Origin: an uncultured Oscillospiraceae bacterium
Lineage (GTDB): Bacteria > Bacillota > Clostridia > Oscillospirales > Oscillospiraceae
Direction of reading: 5' to 3'
Length of the DNA stretch: 11,964 nt
NCBI GenBank assembly: GCA_934668295.1
Contig: CAKUND010000058.1
Span: 1 to 11,964 of the forward strand
The position numbers and the translations under genes are program-made. Below the pieces are notes generated by a model. That model made no database searches, was not told where the DNA came from, and worked only from the letters and a program-made list of their open reading frames with translations. Positions 1,267 through 11,943 of the stretch are shown one piece after another (within the stretch, counting starts at the first letter, position 1; every line of letters begins with the position of its first letter).

Positions 1267-1782
1267 TTATTTTCTGGCAAAGAAGCGGTGCGTGCCGTTC
1301 TCTTGCCGGATTGCAAAAATAACGGGTCTGGTGTACGAAAATGCTTCTGGTCGGATGCCATCAGGCAGCAGAACGATGATTTTTTCGTCCTGCCGGATCT
1401 CGCGCTCCGGCGGCGGATCACTGCCGGACACGATGACGAATTGCTTGAAGCTGGGTTCTCCAAGCGAGAAGCGGAGCAGGATATGTTTGTCTACGGCATA
1501 GAAATCCTCTGGCTGCGCCGCAGACAACTCCAACATCACGTCAATGGCTTCTATCCGCTGTGTGATAGGATTCTCTCCGGTTCGTGTGACGATGCCATCT
1601 GCGATTTGCAGCAGCCCGCCCACCTGCATCTGCCGCACGCAGGCATTGGTCACGCGCATGGCATCGTCAAGCGAGGAAAAGACGAACGCTTTTTGCAGCA
1701 GCGCGGCAAGCTGCCGCTGTTTCGTGCAGCCGAGCTTTTCCAACGCGGCCAGCAGATATTTTTGCTGTTTTGTCAGCAGCAT
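1267..1782 (-). CDS. Small winged-helix-like mobile-element protein (DUF5697-like)
   Basis: A 171-residue protein. Its start ATG at 1782 shares one base with the repA stop (TGATG), so translation is probably coupled to repA. The N-terminus (MLLTKQQKYLLAALEKLG, then a QLAALL helix) resembles a winged-helix segment. Residues about 85-171 form an alpha/beta-looking region with strands such as KQFVIVSG and EKIIVLLPDG. I recall similar proteins called DUF5697 beside repA in Firmicute elements, but that is from memory. Position between repA and the S1-like gene suggests a role in replication or its control. I see no catalytic motif. The reading frame is secure, the family name tentative. Confidence 0.62.
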   Translation of the reverse strand: MLLTKQQKYLLAALEKLGCTKQRQLAALLQKAFVFSSLDDAMRVTNACVRQMQVGGLLQIADGIVTRTGENPITQRIEAIDVMLELSAAQPEDFYAVDKHILLRFSLGEPSFKQFVIVSGSDPPPEREIRQDEKIIVLLPDGIRPEAFSYTRPVIFAIRQENGTHRFFARK

Positions 1783-2774
1783 CAGCCTCGCCCCTTTCCC
1801 GGCGGCGAGCGCAGTGAATTGAGATATGGGTCAACCATCAGATTGCTCTCTGTTTCTGTGATGCAGTTGTAGATCGTGGACATGACGTACTTCGTAGAAT
1901 CGCGAACAGGGGCGTTCCGGTTCGCGTGCAGATTGACTTCCGCTTCCTGCAAAACGAAATAGTTCAGCCGGTGCAGCCGCGAGCGTACCCGGCTTTGCGG
2001 CAGAACAGCCTGCCCGATGCGCAGATTGTCCGAGTAGAAAAGCCGCTCGATGGCATTTTCAAAAACACGCGCCACCTCCGGCTTGAAATACGAAAGCTCA
2101 CAAGCATCCAGAATGCCCGTGAGCTCTTTTTCATCGTCCGCCGGTCCGTCCTCCGAGGGTACAGACAGACTGACATCTGAGAAAGCTGTATCAGGTTGAC
2201 TAAAATCAGTATTACTTGCGCCCGGATCCTGCGGTTCTGGAACATCAGAATCTGCGGTTCTAAAGGCGGGGATTTCGGGGTTCTGGGGCCGCGTATCCTG
2301 CGGTTCTTCCGCTTCAAGAAACGCAGAATCCGCGGTTCTGGAACCGCAGGATTCATACGATTCAGAGCAGAACGGCGCGCATTCGTAGCCGGGATCGTCG
2401 ATGGGCGTGACGCTGGCCAGATAGATCTGATTGGCGTCGCCGCGGCCGCAGCGCTTTTCCCAGATGAGCTGAAGCTCCGCCAGCTTGCGAAAGGCCGCCG
2501 TGACGCGCTGCTCACAGATGCGAAGCTCCTTTGCCAGCGCCTTTCGCGGAAAGATCACGAACACCTCACCGGCATCATTCACCCAGCCGTTGCGCCGTGA
2601 AAGCTGAAAGCGGTTCAGGAGAAAGGTGTACGTCACCTTCGCGTCCAGACTCATATCCGCATATCGCGGGTCGGAAAATAACCATCGCGGCATCTGCATG
2701 TGCCAGACGTTCTGTACGTCCGTCTGCCGCATAAGCCGGAAACTTGGATGCTCGGTCAGCTTGGCTGCTTTCAT
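1782..2774 (-). CDS. repA: Replication initiator protein A (RepA_N family)
   Basis: This 330-residue protein starts at ATG 2774 with a GGAGGG site at 2782-2787, 7 bases upstream. Residues about 20-125 match the RepA_N DNA-binding domain in order: MPRWLFSDPRYADMSLDAKV, LLNRFQLSRRNGWVNDAGEV, a helix-turn-helix (KELRICEQRVTAAFRKLAEL) and GRGDANQIYLA. Residues about 130-215 are low-complexity, rich in Asp, Glu, Pro and Ser, and are encoded by the iteron block described separately. Residues about 216-318 form the variable C-terminal domain. RepA_N proteins initiate theta replication of Firmicute plasmids and conjugative elements from origins often lying inside the rep gene. The gene is divergent from the toxin-antitoxin pair across 106 bases. 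A TACAAT at 2801-2806 (minus strand) could be its -10, but I see no good -35. Confidence 0.9.
   Translation of the reverse strand: MKAAKLTEHPSFRLMRQTDVQNVWHMQMPRWLFSDPRYADMSLDAKVTYTFLLNRFQLSRRNGWVNDAGEVFVIFPRKALAKELRICEQRVTAAFRKLAELQLIWEKRCGRGDANQIYLASVTPIDDPGYECAPFCSESYESCGSRTADSAFLEAEEPQDTRPQNPEIPAFRTADSDVPEPQDPGASNTDFSQPDTAFSDVSLSVPSEDGPADDEKELTGILDACELSYFKPEVARVFENAIERLFYSDNLRIGQAVLPQSRVRSRLHRLNYFVLQEAEVNLHANRNAPVRDSTKYVMSTIYNCITETESNLMVDPYLNSLRSPPGKGRG
2224..2354. repeat. Iteron array inside repA; probable replication origin
   Basis: Five copies of a 15-base unit, roughly RGAATCYGCGGTTCT on the plus strand, start at 2224, 2247, 2270, 2293 and 2325. The first four are exactly 23 bases apart and the last is 32 bases on. 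The 2270 copy is the most degenerate. The last is followed by an inverted copy, making a palindrome at 2326-2354. Since 23 is not a multiple of 3, the copies encode different peptides (RTADS twice, EPQD twice, QNPEI once), so the conserved object is the DNA. RepA_N replicons are known to carry their origin as repeats in the central rep coding region, which this fits. Function as an origin is inferred. Confidence 0.75.
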
Positions 2775-2849: not shown

Positions 2850-2880
2850 CAAGGATTTTATTTGCGTGGGAGGTGTAAGC

Positions 2881-3150
2881 ATGATCACGATTCGGCCTGT
2901 ATCAGATTTACGAAACAAGTTTACAGAGATCGAAGACTGCGTCAAAAGCGGCAAGCCTGTTTATCTCACCAAAAACGGGTACGGCTCTATGGTCGTTCTC
3001 AGTCTGGAGCAGTACGCCGCGCTGACGGACGATATCGAACTGAAGCTGGATGAGGCAGATAAGGCTGCGGCCGCAGACCCCGTTCGTTATACGGAAGATG
3101 AAGTTTTTTCGAGAGCGAGGAGCCGCATCCATGAACGAAAAGCATTATAA
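2881..3150 (+). CDS. Phd/YefM-type antitoxin
   Basis: An 89-residue protein from ATG 2881, chosen because GGGAGG at 2868-2873 lies a suitable distance upstream; an in-frame ATG at 2866 precedes that site. The N-terminus (MITIRPVSDLRNKFTEIED, then GKPVYLTKNGYGSMVVLSLEQY) is the classic Phd/YefM DNA-binding fold, and the charged C-terminal tail is where the toxin usually docks. Its last 20 bases overlap the start of the toxin gene at 3131, as is common in these pairs. The product should neutralise the toxin and repress the operon. In a mobile element it stabilises inheritance. Confidence 0.88.
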   Translation: MITIRPVSDLRNKFTEIEDCVKSGKPVYLTKNGYGSMVVLSLEQYAALTDDIELKLDEADKAAAADPVRYTEDEVFSRARSRIHERKAL

Positions 3151-3445
3151 GTTGCGCTTCCTCCCACTGTTTGAAGAAGACCTCAATGAAATCGTAGATT
3201 ATATCACGAATCGTCTGAAAAACCCAATCGCCGCAGACGCATTGGTTTCTGATGTGCAGACGGCGATCCGGAACCGCCTTTCCTGCGCAGAAGCATTTGA
3301 ACAGTATCACTCGGCAAAGGAGCGGCAGTATCCGTACTATCGGATCACTGTCCGCAATTATACGATCTTCTATGTCGTCATTGATGATGTCATGGAAGTC
3401 CGCAGAATCATTTACAGCCGGCGCGATATCAAGCGCCAGATCTGA
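3131..3445 (+). CDS. RelE/ParE-superfamily toxin
   Basis: A 104-residue protein from ATG 3131, preceded by GAGGAG at 3117-3122. The frame is open further upstream, but that part lies within the antitoxin gene. The sequence has the compact RelE/ParE pattern: KLRFLPLFEEDLNEIVDYI (strand plus first helix), then a helix ending near AFEQY, then YYRITVRNYTIFYVV and RRIIYSRRDI strands ending in basic residues. Members are either ribosome-dependent mRNA nucleases (RelE) or gyrase poisons (ParE), and I cannot decide which. It converges with virD4 with a single base between the stop codons and no obvious terminator. Confidence 0.85.
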   Translation: MNEKHYKLRFLPLFEEDLNEIVDYITNRLKNPIAADALVSDVQTAIRNRLSCAEAFEQYHSAKERQYPYYRITVRNYTIFYVVIDDVMEVRRIIYSRRDIKRQI

Positions 3446-3446
3446 A

Positions 3447-5474
3447 TTACTGGTTCAGAATGCTGTCCACCGTACACTCCACCATTCCAATCTCATCATC
3501 CTCAGCCAGATCGTAGGCGGGCGGCTGCTCGCTGCGGTCTGGCTGTTTTTCTTTGACGGGCGGTTTTGGGATGTTTGACGCTTCTTTCTGAACAGGCGCT
3601 TTCTTTTGCGGCGCTGCTTCGGTTTCTTTTCTTCGCCACTCCGGGATGTAGTCAATGACGCGGCAGGTAGTGAGGCCGGCGTAGTCCGGCAGCTCCTCCG
3701 GCGTCATTTTGTAGAGAAGCGCGGGCTTGTGACCCTTGAACAGAGCCAAGCACTTCCGGTTCTCCAAACGCAGGATCTCATCGGGGTTCATCAGGTCGCG
3801 CTGGGTGTTGCTTCGCGTCTGGGAATACGGGCGCGTGGACGAATACACCGGCGAGAACAGCGGCATCATTGGCATTTGGTTATTGAGGACGGAGATCGTC
3901 ACCTTGCCGCATTTCTCCGAAATGTACTTTGCCGACGTCAGATCGTTGCAGCCCATGTAGAGCGTCTGGTCGAACGTCGCCAGCTGGTTCTCCCACTCCT
4001 TGCCCGGATACTTTTCCTGCCACTGAGATAAGCTCTGCACGACGATCTGCGCGGACATATTGAAGCCGCGGATGCTGTTCAGACTGTCCGCCACGCCGTC
4101 CAGATAACCGATGTTGCAGTATTCGTCGAGGCAAAAATTTGTCAGCACCGGCAGCCGTCCGCCCGCGCATTGCAGACGTGCGAAGTTGGACAGCTGCGGC
4201 AGGGCCAGCGAAAAGAACAGCGACGACAGGAATCGATAGGCACTGTCCTGCGCGGAGATGATGACGAAATACACACAAGGACGCTTGCCGGGGAGCAGGA
4301 GATCGACATCGTGGTTGCGCGTGATCTTATCCACCAGACGGCTCTGGAAGACCGCTAAACGGTTGCCGAGACCAATAACGATGTTGCCCCAGAGATTTTC
4401 CTTTGCCTTGAGGAACAGACCATGCGGATACTTGGCCGGGTGTTCCGGTGGCAGGGCTTCGAGTTTACGGTTGATCTCCTCAATGCTCTCCGTCGCGATC
4501 ATGCGGTACACGTCGCCAAGGCCGCGCTGCTCAATGGGCAGCAGGTTCCCGTTTGCGTCACGCAGATTGACAACATAGTGGATGAGCGCCATCAGGAGGT
4601 TCAGCTCCGCGCGGCTCCAGAAGTCGTTGGCTTCTTTCGGTCCTGACGTGTTCTGCACGATCGTGTTGGCTACCGTCTGCACGAGCTGCGGCTGGGTGTC
4701 CAGTCCATACAGACAGTTCCAGCCGTCCGAATGCTCCATGTCCAGAAAGTTTACCGCTTTCACATAAAAGCCGTGCTGCCTGAAATACGGGGAAAGACGT
4801 TCAAACAGCTTGCCCTTCGCATCCGTAATGAACGCGGACTCGCCGCGCTTGGCGCAGCCCATGAGGAACGGAATAATAAAGCCTCTGGACTTGCCGCTGC
4901 CCGGTGCGCCGATGCAGAGTAAGTTATTATTGTCTCCGGCGACCATCCGGTGCGCGGCATAGAGTGCGTAAGCATCCGGATCATCCGGATGCTTTTTGAC
5001 TTTGCCGAGGATCATGCCCTCCGTCTTGTCTGTGGGCGACAGCTCCAGAAACTCGCGCATTTCTTTCTCCGTCAGGAAACCGGACGTGCCATGTGTGCCG
5101 TCCGGAAGAATGTCAAACCCGCGCGGGTCATGCGTGTATTTGTAACCGGAGAACCAGATATAGCCTTTCTTCGTGATGAGGCAGATGATCAGCACGATCA
5201 CCAGCGTTGTTACAATTCCAAAGCCCGTGAATACCGCACCCCAGTTTTTGAACGGGTTCAGCACCCAGATGCTTTGGATTTCTTCGCCCGCTTGATGAAA
5301 GGTTGATGCGATTCCAAGCCGCAGAGAGTTGAGAAACATCCCATAAAAATACCAGCCGACGATCACGGCTGGCACGCGCATAGGCAGCTTGGCTTTGTTT
5401 CGGGCAAGCCAGCTTTTGAATCTCGCATCCAGTTTGTCCTCCAGCTTTTCAAGGAGCTTTGAGAGGCGGAACAT
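3447..5474 (-). CDS. virD4: VirD4/TraG-type type IV coupling protein
   Basis: A 675-residue protein from ATG 5474, preceded by GGAAGGAAG; the frame is open to 5579, but no site supports a start there. Two membrane segments (about 34-55 and 80-101) are followed by the soluble ATPase. Walker A is GAPGSGKS (189-196), Walker B is NFCLDEYCNIG (446-456), and a TraG-like QSLSQ motif is at 480-484. The C-terminal 90 residues are Pro, Lys and Glu rich, with an acidic end. The coupling protein sits at the inner membrane and feeds the relaxase-DNA complex into the transfer channel. The gene overlaps the replication-relaxation gene by 26 bases, indicating one operon. Confidence 0.93.
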   Translation of the reverse strand: MFRLSKLLEKLEDKLDARFKSWLARNKAKLPMRVPAVIVGWYFYGMFLNSLRLGIASTFHQAGEEIQSIWVLNPFKNWGAVFTGFGIVTTLVIVLIICLITKKGYIWFSGYKYTHDPRGFDILPDGTHGTSGFLTEKEMREFLELSPTDKTEGMILGKVKKHPDDPDAYALYAAHRMVAGDNNNLLCIGAPGSGKSRGFIIPFLMGCAKRGESAFITDAKGKLFERLSPYFRQHGFYVKAVNFLDMEHSDGWNCLYGLDTQPQLVQTVANTIVQNTSGPKEANDFWSRAELNLLMALIHYVVNLRDANGNLLPIEQRGLGDVYRMIATESIEEINRKLEALPPEHPAKYPHGLFLKAKENLWGNIVIGLGNRLAVFQSRLVDKITRNHDVDLLLPGKRPCVYFVIISAQDSAYRFLSSLFFSLALPQLSNFARLQCAGGRLPVLTNFCLDEYCNIGYLDGVADSLNSIRGFNMSAQIVVQSLSQWQEKYPGKEWENQLATFDQTLYMGCNDLTSAKYISEKCGKVTISVLNNQMPMMPLFSPVYSSTRPYSQTRSNTQRDLMNPDEILRLENRKCLALFKGHKPALLYKMTPEELPDYAGLTTCRVIDYIPEWRRKETEAAPQKKAPVQKEASNIPKPPVKEKQPDRSEQPPAYDLAEDDEIGMVECTVDSILNQ

Positions 5475-6543
5475 CCAGAACACTTCCTTCCGATGTGTAA
5501 AATGGCAGATCAGGCGGCGCGTATGGCATGGTGCTTCCAAGCAGCTCCAGCAGCGCCGATTCCGTGATCGTAAAGACACGCGCCTTTCCGGTTTCGCGGT
5601 AGCGGCGGTTCAGAACGGTTTCCACCTGCTCCGGCAGCGTGGCCAGCGCGATTTGTGAAATGCCATCCGAACGGGCCGTTTCCACCGCCGCGTCGATGCG
5701 CCGCAGATCCATGTCCGCCGCCATGACGAACGGCACACCCTGATACATCGCGTCATACATCGCTCGATTCACAGGCGGCGGAACGTAATGCGACTTCAGG
5801 ATGATTCTCGCCAGAAGTTCACGGTAATTTGGAACACCCATGATGTGGAGCTGCAAGCAGCCCGTGTCATTGCACGGCAACAGAAACAGCGGCAGCTTCA
5901 GGCAATCGTAGACCTCGCGGTAGGTTTGCAGGCGCGTATTCTGGTTCGCTTGCCCGGCATCCAGTTCGGCGAGAATTTCCTCGTAGCCGGACGCGGCAAA
6001 AATTATGACGCGCTGCTTTGCGGGAATTGCCACCGTGTGATTCTGAAAGGCGGTCAGTTCATCTGTCAGTGCGACACAGCCGATACCGGGACTGACCCAG
6101 TGGATCGCGCACATGAGGTCGCCGGTATGGAGCAGCGCCGCCACACGGGTGCTGCCCCATGGATTGGACCCACGATTGCGGGCGATCATGGGAAGAAACA
6201 TCGCCCGTTCGTTTAGTGCAGAAACGTCTGTTGTAAAAACGGAAACAGCGGCCTGATACACGGTGCCCATCAGCTTCGCTTGTCGGATGCGGCGTAGAGT
6301 ATCAGCGGCTTTGTAAGCCGGAGCAACTGCGGCCGGGAGTTTCGGAAAGGCGGCGTCGAGCAGCCGGTTCCCGGCAGCGGTCAGCGTGTAGGCTTGTGCG
6401 GGCAAATAGAGTTTTATCAGGCGGAGGATTTCAAGGTTCTGAACCTCAGCCTTGGAAAACACACTGGTCAAATCTTCCGCCAGCACGAAGCGGCACCAGC
6501 GGAGAAAGCGCAGGATATCAAGGTCGCGGGTCGTAAAAATCAT
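5449..6543 (-). CDS. Replication-relaxation family protein
   Basis: Taken from ATG 6543 this is 364 residues. The frame is open to GTG 6687, but the extra residues cross the inverted repeats and do not look like the family, while MIFTTRDLDILRFLRWCRF is a typical beginning. The ribosome site is weak (GGGAA, 5 bases upstream). Residues 1-70 form a winged helix ending in YTLTAAGNRLL, and a larger domain of unknown fold follows. PF13814 proteins are mobile-element accessory proteins thought to bind DNA near the origin and act in replication or relaxation. The end overlaps virD4. The family is fairly sure; the exact start is not. Confidence 0.75.
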   Translation of the reverse strand: MIFTTRDLDILRFLRWCRFVLAEDLTSVFSKAEVQNLEILRLIKLYLPAQAYTLTAAGNRLLDAAFPKLPAAVAPAYKAADTLRRIRQAKLMGTVYQAAVSVFTTDVSALNERAMFLPMIARNRGSNPWGSTRVAALLHTGDLMCAIHWVSPGIGCVALTDELTAFQNHTVAIPAKQRVIIFAASGYEEILAELDAGQANQNTRLQTYREVYDCLKLPLFLLPCNDTGCLQLHIMGVPNYRELLARIILKSHYVPPPVNRAMYDAMYQGVPFVMAADMDLRRIDAAVETARSDGISQIALATLPEQVETVLNRRYRETGKARVFTITESALLELLGSTMPYAPPDLPFYTSEGSVLDVPPLKAP

Positions 6544-7480: not shown

Positions 7481-9415
7481 TCAGCAAATCCGTTGGGGAT
7501 GTTGTGATGGCGTCGTATTCTTTTTGAGTCGCGTAAAACGCGATCGGCACATGGTTATAGCCGATGCACAAAGCCCCTCGCCGCGGCGAAACCGTGTGAT
7601 CTGACGGACTTCTTCCTCGGATAAATTCAAGACGTTTTGAATCAGCCGCGCTTCCTGTTCTTCCATCTGCATGACGATCTTGATGCGGCTGGAATCCAGA
7701 ATGCCTTTGCCGTATTTGCCATTATCCAGCGAGAACAGGTCTTGCATACCCTGTGTGGATGTGATCGCGATACCGCCGAGACCGCGGATGGTCTTGACCA
7801 TCTCCTGAATATAGCCCGCCGCCAGCGGATTGGAGTTTGCGCCGACCAGCGACCAGAGTTCGTCTGAGATGAGCGCGGAGAGCTGTCCGCCGGCACCAGA
7901 GATGATGTCGTTCGCGATATCTGTCGCCCAGAAGATGCCAGGCAGAAGCAGATCGTCTGGCATACCGGATGTGTCAATGACGATGTATTTGTTATCAAGG
8001 TCAATTTCATTCCGGCTGCCCATCGCGGAGGCCGAGCCGGTCACATAGCGCGCCAGCACAACGGCAAGATGCCGCGTATCCGCGCTTTCCTGCAGCACGT
8101 CGTACCAATCTGCCAGGATGGGCATTCTGCCAAAACTTCCGTCTTTGTTCAGAACGGAAGCGTTGTCAAATGTGATGCCGTACCGCCGGTAGCATTCGAC
8201 CAGCGACGTATCCAGGTAATTCCGGTCTTCATCGCTGAGGTCGCGCTTTTGCAGGCTGTACCAGATGATAAGCCGCGAAATTTTATCCGCCAGCACGGAA
8301 TCATCCCGGGAGGCGAGTCCCTTGAGGCCCGCATAGGTGTCCAGCGATTTTCTGCGGATGGCCATAATATTCGGGCAGTCCGGTGAGGACGGGGACATTC
8401 TCAGATACAGTCCGCCAAGCTGCTCACAGCGTGGACGGAACTCGTGTCCTTTTTTCGGGATGATGTAAATAACGCGCTTGCCCTGCTGTCGCAGGCGGCC
8501 GCCGACACATTGGAGCGTGAACGTCTTGCCTGCGCCGGACGAGCCGCCGATCCAGATGTTGCCGTTCGTATATTTATAGTCGTCATAGGGGTTCAGAAAG
8601 ACCGGCGAACGGTTGTACATATTGAGACCGAGAAAGATGCCGTTGCGGTCGGATAACTCATAGGACGCGAATGGGAACGCCGCCGCCACGCCGCTGGTAA
8701 GCGCATTGCGGCGCGACTTGCGTTCAATGTCCGGGTCAAGATAGAGGATGGGGAGCATGGACAAAAACGCCTGCTCCTGCTTGTACTCACAGCGGCGGGC
8801 AATCATGTCCACGGAGACACACAGCTTTTCTACCGCCGTGACACGATGCTCCAGCGTCTCCGGATCACCGGCCGTGACCTCAATGAGCGTGTGCATATAA
8901 TAAAAATCCTCACCCTGCCGGTTCATCACATCCTTGAGATACATACCGGAGGCAATGGCACTGTCCAGCTCCTCGAAGTCCTGCCGGGTGTCCGCAACGT
9001 CACGCATCCGGCTGCGGTTCATCATGGTCTGCTGGGAGATCTTCGCCAGAATCTTCTCCTTGGATTGCTTGTCAAAGTGGAACGAAATGCTGATGCCTTC
9101 GCCGGCCTCGACCAGCGGTGCCAGCCAGCTCGCGCCGACGGTCGTGGAATATCCGTAGCCCGTGATGTAAAGATAGGCATGAAAAATGCCGTCCACTACA
9201 ATGTAGTCCCGGCTTTTGGTGTCCACGCTCGTAGGCGAGAGAATATCCAAGATCGTTGTTGAGCCAGCCTCCAGCTCGCTCAGATCCGGCGTTTCCTCGC
9301 CGAACAGCAGGCGCTTGAGAAACGGCTGCTTCTTCGGCTGCTCCTTGACTGGCGGCTTCGCCTCCGGCGGCAAGCCGGGCGGCGGGGCGGGTTTGTTCTT
9401 GCGGTTCTTTTTCAA
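7481..9415 (-). CDS. virB4: VirB4-type conjugation ATPase, apparent 3' frameshift
   Basis: Start is TTG 9415, because AAGGAGG at 9425-9431 lies 9 bases upstream; an in-frame ATG at 9499 would overlap the divergent gene and has no ribosome site. As read, 644 residues. A Pro/Lys-rich start is followed by a VirB4/TraC N-terminal domain (HAYLYITGYGYSTTVGASWL), Walker A GGSSGAGKT (290-298), Walker B LISDELW (515-521) and a TSTQ motif. VirB4 proteins power assembly of the transfer channel at the inner membrane. After residue about 614 (GEGL) the frame becomes atypical (CASAITMCRSRF). The -1 frame gives a normal-looking end and would stop at 7458-7460 over the next gene's ATG. A one-base loss in 7570-7577 would explain this. 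Confidence 0.88.
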   Translation of the reverse strand: MKKNRKNKPAPPPGLPPEAKPPVKEQPKKQPFLKRLLFGEETPDLSELEAGSTTILDILSPTSVDTKSRDYIVVDGIFHAYLYITGYGYSTTVGASWLAPLVEAGEGISISFHFDKQSKEKILAKISQQTMMNRSRMRDVADTRQDFEELDSAIASGMYLKDVMNRQGEDFYYMHTLIEVTAGDPETLEHRVTAVEKLCVSVDMIARRCEYKQEQAFLSMLPILYLDPDIERKSRRNALTSGVAAAFPFASYELSDRNGIFLGLNMYNRSPVFLNPYDDYKYTNGNIWIGGSSGAGKTFTLQCVGGRLRQQGKRVIYIIPKKGHEFRPRCEQLGGLYLRMSPSSPDCPNIMAIRRKSLDTYAGLKGLASRDDSVLADKISRLIIWYSLQKRDLSDEDRNYLDTSLVECYRRYGITFDNASVLNKDGSFGRMPILADWYDVLQESADTRHLAVVLARYVTGSASAMGSRNEIDLDNKYIVIDTSGMPDDLLLPGIFWATDIANDIISGAGGQLSALISDELWSLVGANSNPLAAGYIQEMVKTIRGLGGIAITSTQGMQDLFSLDNGKYGKGILDSSRIKIVMQMEEQEARLIQNVLNLSEEEVRQITRFRRGEGLCASAITMCRSRFTRLKKNTTPSQHPQRIC

Positions 9416-9424
9416 GTGATGCGA

Positions 9425-9431
9425 CCTCCTT
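9425..9431 (-). promoter_or_regulatory. Ribosome binding site that sets the virB4 TTG start
   Basis: AAGGAGG on the minus strand is a near-perfect anti-SD match, 9 bases before TTG 9415. No ATG in this frame lies a suitable distance from it. Its last two bases overlap the -35 box of the divergent cassette promoter. Confidence 0.8.
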
Positions 9432-9457
9432 GAAATTATTTGGGTTTTGGATATAAT
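9430..9457 (+). promoter_or_regulatory. Sigma-A-type promoter of the DUF3791-DUF3990-TIR cassette
   Basis: TTGAAA (9430-9435) and a perfect TATAAT (9452-9457) are 16 bases apart. The expected start near 9464 gives a short leader with GAAAGGGG at 9465-9472 before ATG 9480. This gives the cassette expression independent of the opposing transfer operon. I see no operator-like repeat. Confidence 0.7.
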
Positions 9458-9479
9458 AGAATCAGAAAGGGGCGTCTGT

Positions 9480-9677
9480 ATGAGTACATTATCTTTCAAA
9501 GCATTCTGTATTGAATACTATGCTGCGCATATCGGGCAGCCCAGCAATGAGGTCTATGCGCTGTTTGAGCGAACCGGACTTCTGAACCTGCTCGACGAAG
9601 ATTATGAAGATTTGCACGGCATGAGCATGGAATACCTGATGCAGTTCTTCGACCGATATCTGGAGGGCGCGGCATGA
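9480..9677 (+). CDS. DUF3791-family small protein
   Basis: A 65-residue protein from ATG 9480, chosen for GAAAGGGG 7 bases upstream; an in-frame ATG at 9447 lies inside the promoter. The sequence (FKAFCIEYYAAHIGQPSNEV, LFERTGLLNLLDEDYEDLHG, then an aromatic helix) fits the short helical DUF3791 family. That family commonly precedes DUF3990 genes in Firmicutes, which happens here with an ATGA overlap at 9674-9677. Constant pairing of a small helical protein with an ART-like protein suggests an antitoxin or partner, but this is inference. It is the first gene of the cassette. Confidence 0.75.
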   Translation: MSTLSFKAFCIEYYAAHIGQPSNEVYALFERTGLLNLLDEDYEDLHGMSMEYLMQFFDRYLEGAA

Positions 9678-10183
9678 TTTTGTATCACGGAAGTACGATG
9701 GAGGTTTCACAGCCGCACATTCTCAAATCCGAAATCGGTCGTGACTTTGGTTTTGCATTCTATACCACGGATATTCAGGCACAGGCCGAACGCTGGGCCA
9801 GACGCCGCGCCATGATCGAGAGTCGTCGTACAAAAGCGAAGGTTCAGGCTATTGTCAGTGTCTACGAATGGGGCGAGGATGCTGCAAAGCAGCTTCGGTT
9901 TTTGCAGTTTGACGGCGCGAGCATGGAATGGTTGGATTTGGTCGTGACCTGCCGCAGTCGAACAGATTATTCTCACGGCTATGACATTGTCGAGGGCAAA
10001 ATTGCAAACGACAATGTGGGTGAAACGGTATCCTACGTTATGCAGGGGATCATGCGCAAAGAGGATGCCATCGAGCGGCTGCGGTTTGAACAAATCAATA
10101 ATCAAATCGCGTTCTGTACGGAAGCGGCCCTGCGCACGCTTCATTTTCAGAACAGCTATATCTGCGGGAGTGTGAATCCATGA
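9674..10183 (+). CDS. DUF3990-family protein, ADP-ribosyltransferase-like
   Basis: A 169-residue protein starting in an ATGA overlap with the DUF3791 gene. Motifs in order: ILYHGS (2-6, His5), GFAFYTT (26-32), WLDLVVTCR (86-94), YDIVEGKIANDNV (103-115) and NQIAFCTEAALRTL (143-156, Glu150). The YDIV-G-x-AND and Q-x-x-F-x-TE-x-AL patterns are those I know from DUF3990. The His near a first strand, the G-x-FYTT strand and the late Glu resemble the ADP-ribosyltransferase fold; I recall DUF3990 being grouped with that superfamily but cannot check. If active it would transfer ADP-ribose from NAD to an unknown target. It is short enough to be a single domain with no signal peptide. Confidence 0.78.
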   Translation: MILYHGSTMEVSQPHILKSEIGRDFGFAFYTTDIQAQAERWARRRAMIESRRTKAKVQAIVSVYEWGEDAAKQLRFLQFDGASMEWLDLVVTCRSRTDYSHGYDIVEGKIANDNVGETVSYVMQGIMRKEDAIERLRFEQINNQIAFCTEAALRTLHFQNSYICGSVNP

Positions 10184-10383
10184 ATCACAGCACAACACGC
10201 GCAACCATTTTGCCGGAGATTATACGGAAAATCATGGCGCACGATCATCTGAGCGAAGATGAAGCCTTGAGGGCCTTTTATTCCTCCGCAACCGGCGCGT
10301 CCTTTGCCGATGACGAAACTGGACTTTACGGCCAGTCGCCGAACTATGTTTTTGGGTTATATCTAGAAGAAATGCGCAAGTGA
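10180..10383 (+). CDS. Small conserved protein of the DUF3990 cassette
   Basis: A 67-residue protein starting in an ATGA overlap with the DUF3990 gene. The sequence runs from a helix (ILPEIIRKIMAHDHLSEDEA) to AFYSSATGASFADDETGLYG and SPNYVFGLYLEEMRK. I do not recognise a named domain, but similar short proteins (helix, then FADD-x-TGLYGQSP) are familiar near DUF3990 genes. It may be an antitoxin or immunity partner. The stop TGA (10381-10383) shares a base with a possible ATG of the next gene. Just beyond it, the +1 frame encodes an acidic tail ending FYKNWAR at TAA 10430-10432, which could be a lost or recoded extension. Confidence 0.7.
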   Translation: MNHSTTRATILPEIIRKIMAHDHLSEDEALRAFYSSATGASFADDETGLYGQSPNYVFGLYLEEMRK

Positions 10384-10436
10384 TGCAGCACGAGAAGAAG
10401 ACGAGGACTTTTACAAAAATTGGGCGAGGTAAGAGG

Positions 10437-11201
10437 ATGGATCAAATTATGTTGCTGACTAAGTTCAAAGACGAGCTTTCGGCATATTCTAACTTTTCGG
10501 AAATCAATTATGAAACAAAATTTGTTTCTCTATTCGAACGTATCTTTGGGAAAAATGACCAATTCACGCATAAAGCTAAGCATATCGCCAGTGGCATAGG
10601 TGTTAAAGGTGTTGCTGATGTAGCGTATGGAAGCATTAGCGATGAGCAATTCAATCGCAACAAACACAATGCTTTTCTATCATTGCTTGACGAGGCGATA
10701 AGTTTCAAGAAGATGGAGCCGCTTCTCACAGAAGAAACACACAATAAAGGTTCGGAGACTGTTATGAATAATAAAGTTTTTATTGTACATGGACATAACG
10801 ATGCACTCAAATACCAGCTCGCGGATTGGTTAAGAAAAATTGAAATTGAACCGATAATTCTGCATGAGCAGGCGAATATGGGCATCACTTCCATATTGGG
10901 GAAAATCGAAAGATATTCTGGCGTTGATTGTGCAATCGTTCTCTTCACGTCTGATGATATTGGCAGTCTAAAAGATGATACAGACAATTTGAGACCGCGT
11001 GCAAGGCAGAATGTTGTTTTTGAAGCAGGGCTTTTTCTTGGTCTACTCGGCGATAAAAAGGTAATCATGCTCTGTGAAAAAGATTTAGAGCGGCCCGGTG
11101 ATCTGGATGGGTGTATCTACATAGAAGCAGATGAGTATGGTGGCTGGAAAGAAAAACTTCGTGCAGAATTTGATGCTATTGGCATAGAGTATAGGCACTG
11201 A
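10437..11201 (+). CDS. TIR-like predicted nucleotide-binding protein (PF10137-like)
   Basis: A 254-residue protein from ATG 10437, chosen for the GAGG 7 bases upstream; ATG 10383 in a TGATG overlap is an alternative. Residues 1-110 are a mostly helical region I do not recognise. Residues 113-254 match the TIR-like fold: KVFIVHGHND (113-122), ILHEQANMG, DCAIVLFTSDD (164-174), RARQNVVFEAGLFLGLLG (188-205) and LDGCIYI. Glu196 in the FEAGLFLG motif is the candidate catalytic residue. Proteins with this domain occur in anti-phage systems as NAD-degrading effectors triggered by nucleotide signals. It is visibly AT-richer than its neighbours (22 of 60 G/C in bases 10441-10500), suggesting separate acquisition. 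Confidence 0.85.
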   Translation: MDQIMLLTKFKDELSAYSNFSEINYETKFVSLFERIFGKNDQFTHKAKHIASGIGVKGVADVAYGSISDEQFNRNKHNAFLSLLDEAISFKKMEPLLTEETHNKGSETVMNNKVFIVHGHNDALKYQLADWLRKIEIEPIILHEQANMGITSILGKIERYSGVDCAIVLFTSDDIGSLKDDTDNLRPRARQNVVFEAGLFLGLLGDKKVIMLCEKDLERPGDLDGCIYIEADEYGGWKEKLRAEFDAIGIEYRH

Positions 11202-11236
11202 TATATGGTTAATCAGCGGAAGATTTACTCGTTTTT

Positions 11237-11264
11237 GAGGAACGGATTCATCCGTTCCTCTTTT
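11237..11264 (+). terminator. Intrinsic terminator of the TIR cassette
   Basis: A perfect 10-bp stem, GAGGAACGGA (11237-11246) and TCCGTTCCTC (11251-11260), has a TTCA loop and is followed by TTTT, then CC and TTT. It lies 35 bases after the TIR stop. In the minus direction the stem is followed by A residues, so it should act only on plus-strand transcripts. Confidence 0.85.
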
Positions 11265-11268
11265 CCTT

Positions 11269-11943
11269 TCATTCTCCATACACCCCATGCACCTCCGTGG
11301 TCATGTCAAATACACCTTCCGGCAGTTTGACGCGCAGGCTCGTGGCTTTGTTGATCAGCTCATACAGGAGCTTCAGCACAAAATCGTCTGTGTAGCGTGG
11401 CTCTAAGACCTCCAATTCGCAGATATCCAGATACCGCCGGGCGGTGTCCGCTTCTTCGTTCAGGCGCTGAATGATGCCTTTGATAGTATTGCGCTTGGCG
11501 CGCATTTTGGCTTCGTACTGGAACACCAGAAAGAAGCGGTGTCGGATGGATTCACTTGCGATGCCGAGGCCGATTTTCTCGATATTGTCCTCGATCTCCG
11601 CGCGGCAGTTTTCGCTTTCCTCGGTTTTCTGGAACTGCCGCATCTGCTCGACGTATTCGCTCGTATCCGGCGGGAGCGTGCGCACCTCGCAGCTCATGCT
11701 GTCCGGTGCGATCTTCAGATACGCTGCGTATGACGTGATGATATTCTGCTGGTCAGATGGTGATTTGAGGTAGAAATTGACGGGCAGTACCTCAAGGATC
11801 TTGATAAACCGATTGTCCTTCGTGATGACCACGCCACCAATGATATTCTTGACCGGTAACCACGCCTGGATGCTGTCACGATAGGTCGCGCCGCCGTGAC
11901 TGGTCGGCGCGGCCGTGCCGAAAATGGCGTCCTTCATGCTCAT
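11269..11943 (-). CDS. TraC-like conjugal transfer protein, VirB4 partner
   Basis: A 224-residue protein from ATG 11943 with GGAGGT 6 bases before it. Residues about 25-110 contain AWLPVKNIIGGVVITKDNRF, EVLPVNFYLKSPSDQQNI and a strand around DSMSCEVRTLP. This follows the TraC-like domain found beside VirB4 ATPases in conjugative elements of Firmicutes and other bacteria. A charged coiled-coil-like region and a C-terminal ILELINKATSL-like helix follow. It has no Walker motifs. It probably works with VirB4 in the inner-membrane part of the channel. Normally virB4 would follow directly; here 1.8 kb of opposite-strand cassette intervenes. Confidence 0.75.
   Translation of the reverse strand: MSMKDAIFGTAAPTSHGGATYRDSIQAWLPVKNIIGGVVITKDNRFIKILEVLPVNFYLKSPSDQQNIITSYAAYLKIAPDSMSCEVRTLPPDTSEYVEQMRQFQKTEESENCRAEIEDNIEKIGLGIASESIRHRFFLVFQYEAKMRAKRNTIKGIIQRLNEEADTARRYLDICELEVLEPRYTDDFVLKLLYELINKATSLRVKLPEGVFDMTTEVHGVYGE

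Follow-up and report, generated by a model that had tools for sequence, protein, structure and literature searches.

A four-gene cassette within the conjugation genes of an uncultured Oscillospiraceae bacterium: probable composite cargo of an ADP-ribosyltransferase-fold unit and a TIR gene

Introduction

Do two proteins of NAD-using kinds (NAD, nicotinamide adenine dinucleotide), encoded one after the other on a mobile element, form one system, or are they separate passengers? The question is raised by a cassette of four genes in contig CAKUND010000058.1 (assembly GCA_934668295.1) from an uncultured Oscillospiraceae bacterium. The stretch analysed, referred to here as the window, comprises 11,964 nucleotides, and the cassette occupies at most positions 9416-11268 of its plus strand, between two minus-strand genes for the N- and C-parts of VirB4. 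A first-pass annotation had proposed that a DUF3990 protein resembling ADP-ribosyltransferases (ART) and a TIR-like protein are co-expressed with two small partners as a single system. The four genes are best read as two units, the trio of genes 1 to 3 and the TIR gene. We consider it about two-thirds probable that they are composite antiparallel cargo of a conjugative element, consisting of an ART toxin with a two-part antitoxin and a stand-alone TIR NADase that was added later. Of what follows, family assignments, predicted folds, gene linkage, fusions and the break in composition rest on computation.

Results

Organization of the cassette

9430..9457, plus strand: promoter-like site TTGAAA-16-TATAAT, recognized by consensus match alone (11 of 12 positions)
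9480..9677, plus strand: gene 1, DUF3791 protein, 65 amino acids (aa); PF12668, E 6e-18; best match to the PADLOC PDC-M13 models, E 3.8e-11 (PDLC04433)
9674..10183, plus strand: gene 2, DUF3990 protein, 169 aa; PF13151, E 1.4e-48, 164.9 bits against a cut-off of 32.2
10180..10383, plus strand: gene 3, divergent DUF3791-like protein, 67 aa; PADLOC PDC-M13C model (PDLC04444), E 1e-12
10384..10436, plus strand: spacer; read together with the final base of gene 3, it may specify 18 leader residues for gene 4
10437..11201, plus strand: gene 4, protein of 254 aa with a helical N-terminal region and a CAP12/Pycsar-type TIR domain; PF10137, E 6.8e-34
11237..11260, plus strand: terminator-like hairpin of 10 pairs with a T-rich tail (sequence scan)

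The four genes, and the ATGA overlaps that join genes 1/2 and genes 2/3, lie where the first-pass annotation had placed them. Both joins that it offered for gene 4 are also present: gene 3 stops at 10383, where TGATG would open a product of 272 residues, and the ATG at 10437 leaves a 53-base gap. The cassette had been credited with its own promoter and terminator. Both sites exist on the plus strand, but the stretch scanned contains 8 promoter-like sites where 3.3 are expected and 4 terminator-like ones where 2.4 are, so that each is no more than compatible with function. Rfam, at the gathering threshold, gave no match anywhere in the window. Gene 3, which has no Pfam family above cut-off, had been described as an unknown; it is in fact recognized by the PDC-M13C model. 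Both units are already in databases (PDC-M13 and PDC-S35), as uncharacterized candidate defence families.

The DUF3990 protein

PADLOC PDC-M13 model PDLC04438 matches the DUF3990 protein over residues 1-161 (E 3.8e-49). The predicted structure has an ADP-ribosyltransferase fold, in line with the ART-like motifs noted earlier, and its closest solved folds in Foldseek include the ParT and RES toxins. In a second look, a cyanophage ejectosome chain that is non-ART by title also ranked high, and a DUF3990 profile gave chance-level matches only (best E 0.09) to the sequences of solved structures. Across 41 DUF3990 sequences, H5 and Y30 are invariant and Q144 is conserved in at least 90%. These residues fall on strands 2-7, 29-32 and 142-147 and are candidates for the H-Y-Q positions of the ART catalytic triad, an equivalence that we assume from position. 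According to the accessible part of one source, the ART clan of Pfam includes DUF3990 (PMC7955679). Thus modelled, DUF3990 is predicted to be an ADP-ribosyltransferase toxin.

It is very improbable that DUF3990 instead serves mobile elements as an ADP-ribosyltransferase with a regulatory or housekeeping role. Such a role would sit easily with the fact that no DUF3990 assay was found in the literature searched (here and below, subscription papers and preprints lay outside the search). Overlapping partner genes and a patchy mobile distribution, however, are typical of toxin-antitoxin units. The odds of a non-toxin role are lowered further because DUF3990 is used as a C-terminal domain of type VI Rhs effectors, as far as the accessible text of two papers goes (PMC4524185, PMC10763514).

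Split and fused small partners across genomes

We compared 40 DUF3990 neighbourhoods, 20 from a class search (19 among its best matches, plus locus L188, chosen for its TIR gene) and 20 among the best of an order search. Of these, 27 have both small proteins and 10 a single partner of about 155 aa (PADLOC PDC-M10B), which bears out the earlier view of the small genes as partners of DUF3990. In the remaining three, L182 has no recognized partner, L188 has a PDC-M42B-like partner and L202 is cut by a contig end. Two gene orders occur among the 27 split-partner loci, 1-2-3 in 10 and 2-3-1 in 17. By our own profiles, the first half of the ~155-aa protein resembles the gene 1 kind and the second half the gene 3 kind; the PADLOC models give the same split in the one member checked (L100, 1953-2411). 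A Bacteroidales plasmid protein of 149 aa, annotated as DUF3791 (L087, 3132-3581), is a fusion in the reverse order. The two opposite-order fusions and the two split orders strongly suggest that the two small proteins act as one DUF3990 partner. Genes 1 and 3 are perhaps distantly related to each other (profile comparison E 2.5e-4, probability 43). Aligned gene 3 homologues share residues 1 to ~64 and mostly differ in the tails beyond; this points to a change of neighbours at the trio's 3' end and counts against linkage with gene 4. Judged by sequence, a single toxin-antitoxin design appears to underlie both PDC-M10 and PDC-M13: an ART-fold protein paired with a DUF3791-like partner that is either fused or split.

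The design is found on phages and plasmids. A search of viral contigs with a single DUF3990 protein found no relative; with the DUF3990 alignment, 24 loci were recovered, 12 of which (~7 distinct) carry the split trio. Plasmid records matching DUF3990 number 67 of 72,556. In each of two plasmid loci opened around DUF3990 (one plasmid kind by gene order), a helix-turn-helix (HTH)-HipA pair lies ~1.4 kb away. PDC-M13 has 3,324 occurrences in a survey of 6,530 rumen genomes and metagenome-assembled genomes, in the portion of that source available (PMC13356809), and the accessible literature on DUF3791 mentions only an association with isolates. No functional study of PDC-M13 was found in the literature searched, nor any paper on PDC-M10, PDC-M42 or PDC-S35.

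The trio could primarily be a tripartite anti-phage system of the CmdTAC kind, in which one of the small proteins would free the ART toxin on sensing a phage product. CmdTAC, an ART toxin with two partners, is an anti-phage precedent according to the accessible part of its description (PMC11618068). The trio likewise has three genes, an ART-fold protein and two small partners, and PADLOC lists it as a defence candidate; in addition, one Moraxella plasmid match to DUF3990 overlaps an annotated type I restriction-modification gene. The partners in CmdTAC, however, are an antitoxin and a chaperone, whereas those in the window are two small proteins that are apparently related and fuse. Pfam and PADLOC scans gave no match to the CmdC chaperone or the CmdA antitoxin, although no CmdTAC model was run directly. 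As addiction is equally compatible with carriage on plasmids and phages, we hold the anti-phage role to be an unlikely primary function.

Are the trio and the TIR gene linked?

That the four genes form one system had been the central claim of the first-pass annotation. We assembled 182 TIR loci: 83 from a first viral and genome scan, 78 from a second viral scan, 20 from the class search (1.5-kb flanks) and L188. Sequence shared with another locus removes 22, so that 160 are distinct; some have only 1.5-kb flanks or a contig end. DUF3990 lies near one of the 182 (160 distinct), and gene 1 or gene 3 near none, which speaks against the claim. Also lacking DUF3990, within ~1.5 kb, are 18 further TIR loci, and a TIR gene occurs in 0 of the 24 viral DUF3990 loci. 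Of 391 Clostridia genomes, 80 have DUF3990 and 21 the TIR family; both occur in 9 and are adjacent in one. Within 394 genomes of one order, 39 have DUF3990 (protein search) and 19 have the TIR, with no adjacent pair among the matches listed. The annotation had itself conceded that a TIR gene next to the trio in this element only would amount to a chance neighbourhood. What was found comes close to that, as the one DUF3990-TIR pair in the Clostridia genomes involves a DUF3990 subtype other than that in the window. Its second ground for doubt, folds that lack NAD sites, finds no echo in the models: judged at the level of fold, both are predicted to be of NAD-using kinds.

Composition and conservation also separate the two units. 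Guanine plus cytosine (GC) content is 39.9% in gene 4 (third positions 37.6%), ~9 points below the trio; it is 48-50% in genes 1-3 (third positions 54-58%) and 54-57% in backbone stretches, or about 56% for the backbone. At identities of at least 90%, we count 120 of 120 DUF3990 relatives versus 4 of 120 full-length TIR relatives among the matches listed. Given its lower GC and the rarity of DUF3990 nearby, the TIR gene appears to have been added separately.

Some observations point the other way, towards one four-gene system that ties the ART unit and the TIR together in function; the DUF3791-like pair might restrain both, for instance, or ADP-ribosylation or NAD fragments might couple them. 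Genes 3 and 4 are on the same strand with a join of 0-53 bases. Protein P0001, a TIR of 94% identity, starts with the same 18 residues that the join in the window would encode, so that the gene 3-gene 4 join may be present in a second allele. In L188 (2480-4858, minus strand), an HTH-DUF3990 gene (PDC-M42-like) and a PDC-M42B-like partner are followed by an open frame of 99 aa and, ~0.8 kb downstream, by a PDC-S35 TIR gene; DUF3990 units of different subtype have been joined to PDC-S35 TIR genes at least twice (window and L188). The single side-by-side pair in L188 exceeds a rough chance expectation of 0.011 (mean genome size assumed), and DUF3990 occurs in 9 of the 21 TIR-bearing genomes (hypergeometric P 0.014). 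Both observations may arise simply because the two families are drawn to mobile cargo. Weighing these points against the counts above, we regard a linked four-gene system as distinctly unlikely, and still more doubtful is a dual-NAD module in which the two-part DUF3791-type antitoxin or the ART product would gate both the ART toxin and the TIR NADase.

The TIR protein

The first-pass identification of gene 4 as a TIR protein with a conserved glutamate is borne out. PF10137 (CAP12-PCTIR_TIR) scores 116.9 bits (cut-off 24.7), and PADLOC PDC-S35 matches residues 17-251 (E 8e-60). E196, in the motif RQNVVFEAGLF, is invariant in 28 sequences and aligns by profile with the glutamate of RDNVVFEFGLF in the solved Cap12 TIR-STING structure 7un8; we take this to be the catalytic residue. 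The structure model (predicted local distance difference test 83.5, predicted template modelling score 0.54) has the 7un8 protein (SfSTING TIR) as its best match, at E 3.8e-6. Residues 1 to ~100 form a helical region.

On the evidence of the window, gene 4 does not qualify as Cap12 of a cyclic-oligonucleotide-based anti-phage signalling system (CBASS). The NCBIfam Cap12 model gives 37.9 bits against a cut-off of 450, on the TIR part only. No STING domain was matched in gene 4, and a Pfam scan of 12 window proteins revealed neither a STING nor a CD-NTase family.

A genome-contig scan with the TIR alignment gave a highest identity of 53% among the best 80 of 539 relatives; relatives of 54-94% identity were seen as proteins only. 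A stand-alone TIR of the gene 4 family is present on a Moraxella osloensis plasmid (L088, 4752-5519), flanked by nitrate reductase and peptidylprolyl isomerase genes.

Place in the conjugative element

1782..2774, minus strand: RepA_N replication protein (family match)
2866-3445, plus strand: Phd/YefM antitoxin (PF02604) and ParE toxin (PF05016), lying between VirD4 and RepA_N as a second antiparallel cassette
3447..5579, minus strand: VirD4, CD1115 family; 318.5 bits against a cut-off of 250
7481..9415, minus strand: VirB4 C-part (CD1110-like ATPase); NF045971, E 6e-57, 193 bits, under the curated cut-off of 325
11269..11943, minus strand: VirB4 N-part, 224 aa; 40% identity to the VirB4 N-part of L317; weak TrsD/CD1110 matches

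The first-pass annotation missed that the cassette is antiparallel cargo within a conjugation operon. The minus strand of the window carries a conjugation region with the VirB4 N-part, the VirB4 C-part (probable TTG start at 9415, AAGGAGG at 9425-9431), two unnamed proteins, VirD4 and RepA_N. The closest relative with both VirB4 parts, L317 (C-part 51% and N-part 40% identical), then matches the next four backbone proteins of the window in order: 237 aa, 412 aa, VirD4 and RepA_N. Its two VirB4 genes share an eight-base overlap. In L289-L303 VirB4 is one open frame of 842-1028 aa (15 of 15); L317 and the window have two genes. Because the L317 genes overlap directly and VirB4 is a single frame in L289-L303, the cassette is most simply an addition at the joint between the VirB4 N- and C-parts. 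A single transcript of the conjugation genes, if that is how they are expressed, would have to run against both antiparallel cassettes. Megablast of the whole window against the 72,556 plasmid records gave no match.

At 11236-11271 (minus strand), an ATG overlapping the stop of the VirB4 N-part opens MKGKEERMNPFLKNE, which resembles the start of the VirB4 C-part in L317. Were this likeness (MKGKEERMNPF in the window against MSKEYRNPF in L317) a remnant of that start, the insertion would lie just inside the VirB4 C-part. We make no such claim: the terminator-like hairpin is made of these very bases, and the likeness may be coincidence.

Comparison with known systems

With PDC-M13 the window shares, at the level of individual models, matches to DUF3990 and to both small partners, and it adds a TIR gene downstream. 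PDC-M10 has DUF3990 with a single partner that fuses both small kinds, which are split in the window; the apparent relation of PDC-M10B to the two small proteins of PDC-M13 emerged from the present analysis. PDC-M10, PDC-M13 and PDC-M42 are candidates defined by models only. Gene 4 matches the PDC-S35 model and has RQNVVFEAGLF, but 181 of the 182 relatives' loci lack DUF3990, whereas the TIR gene in the window follows the trio.

The toxins of ParST and RES-Xre (ParT and RES) are near the DUF3990 fold. The antitoxins of ParST and NatRT are of the Xre type; the window differs in its partner, a DUF3791-like pair in which no HTH was matched, and in its candidate triad, H-Y-Q. RES-Xre has an Xre-type antitoxin (title of 6gw6), and a Pfam scan found no HTH family in genes 1 and 3 that would indicate membership. 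NatT of the NatRT system is an NAD/NADP phosphorylase in the accessible part of its report (PMC11535050). The type VI Rhs effectors belong to the same Pfam family but, in the text available, are secreted and have an immunity gene, whereas DUF3990 in the window stands alone with two intracellular partners. SpbK of Bacillus subtilis, located on the conjugative element ICEBs1, can be likened to gene 4 by description only. It is likewise a single TIR NADase defence protein, in the accessible text of its report (PMC12847820).

Discussion

Under the composite-cargo reading, DUF3990 would be a NAD-using toxin with an ADP-ribosyltransferase fold. It would be bound by a single antitoxin made up of both small DUF3791-like proteins, gene 1 corresponding to the first half and gene 3 to the second half. 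Loss or depletion of the partner would free DUF3990, which would modify a cell component or degrade NAD, and growth would stop. Gene 4, added downstream at a later time, would encode a TIR NADase that works alone and senses through its own N-terminal region, a single-gene defence of the abortive-infection type. The cassette may serve as element-stabilizing or anti-phage cargo. Toxicity, neutralization, NAD use and phage protection are inferred, unlike the computed findings above.

In summary, the cassette is made of known candidate families arranged as composite cargo, and it shows candidate defence genes lodged antiparallel within a conjugation operon. The ART-TIR pair stays the bold reading, and the trio and the TIR are seldom together in the loci examined. 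More worth the attention of specialists is the ART-fold protein with its split or fused DUF3791-like partner. If PDC-M10 and PDC-M13 are one design, as they appear to be, two separate candidate labels would become a single testable toxin-antitoxin hypothesis.
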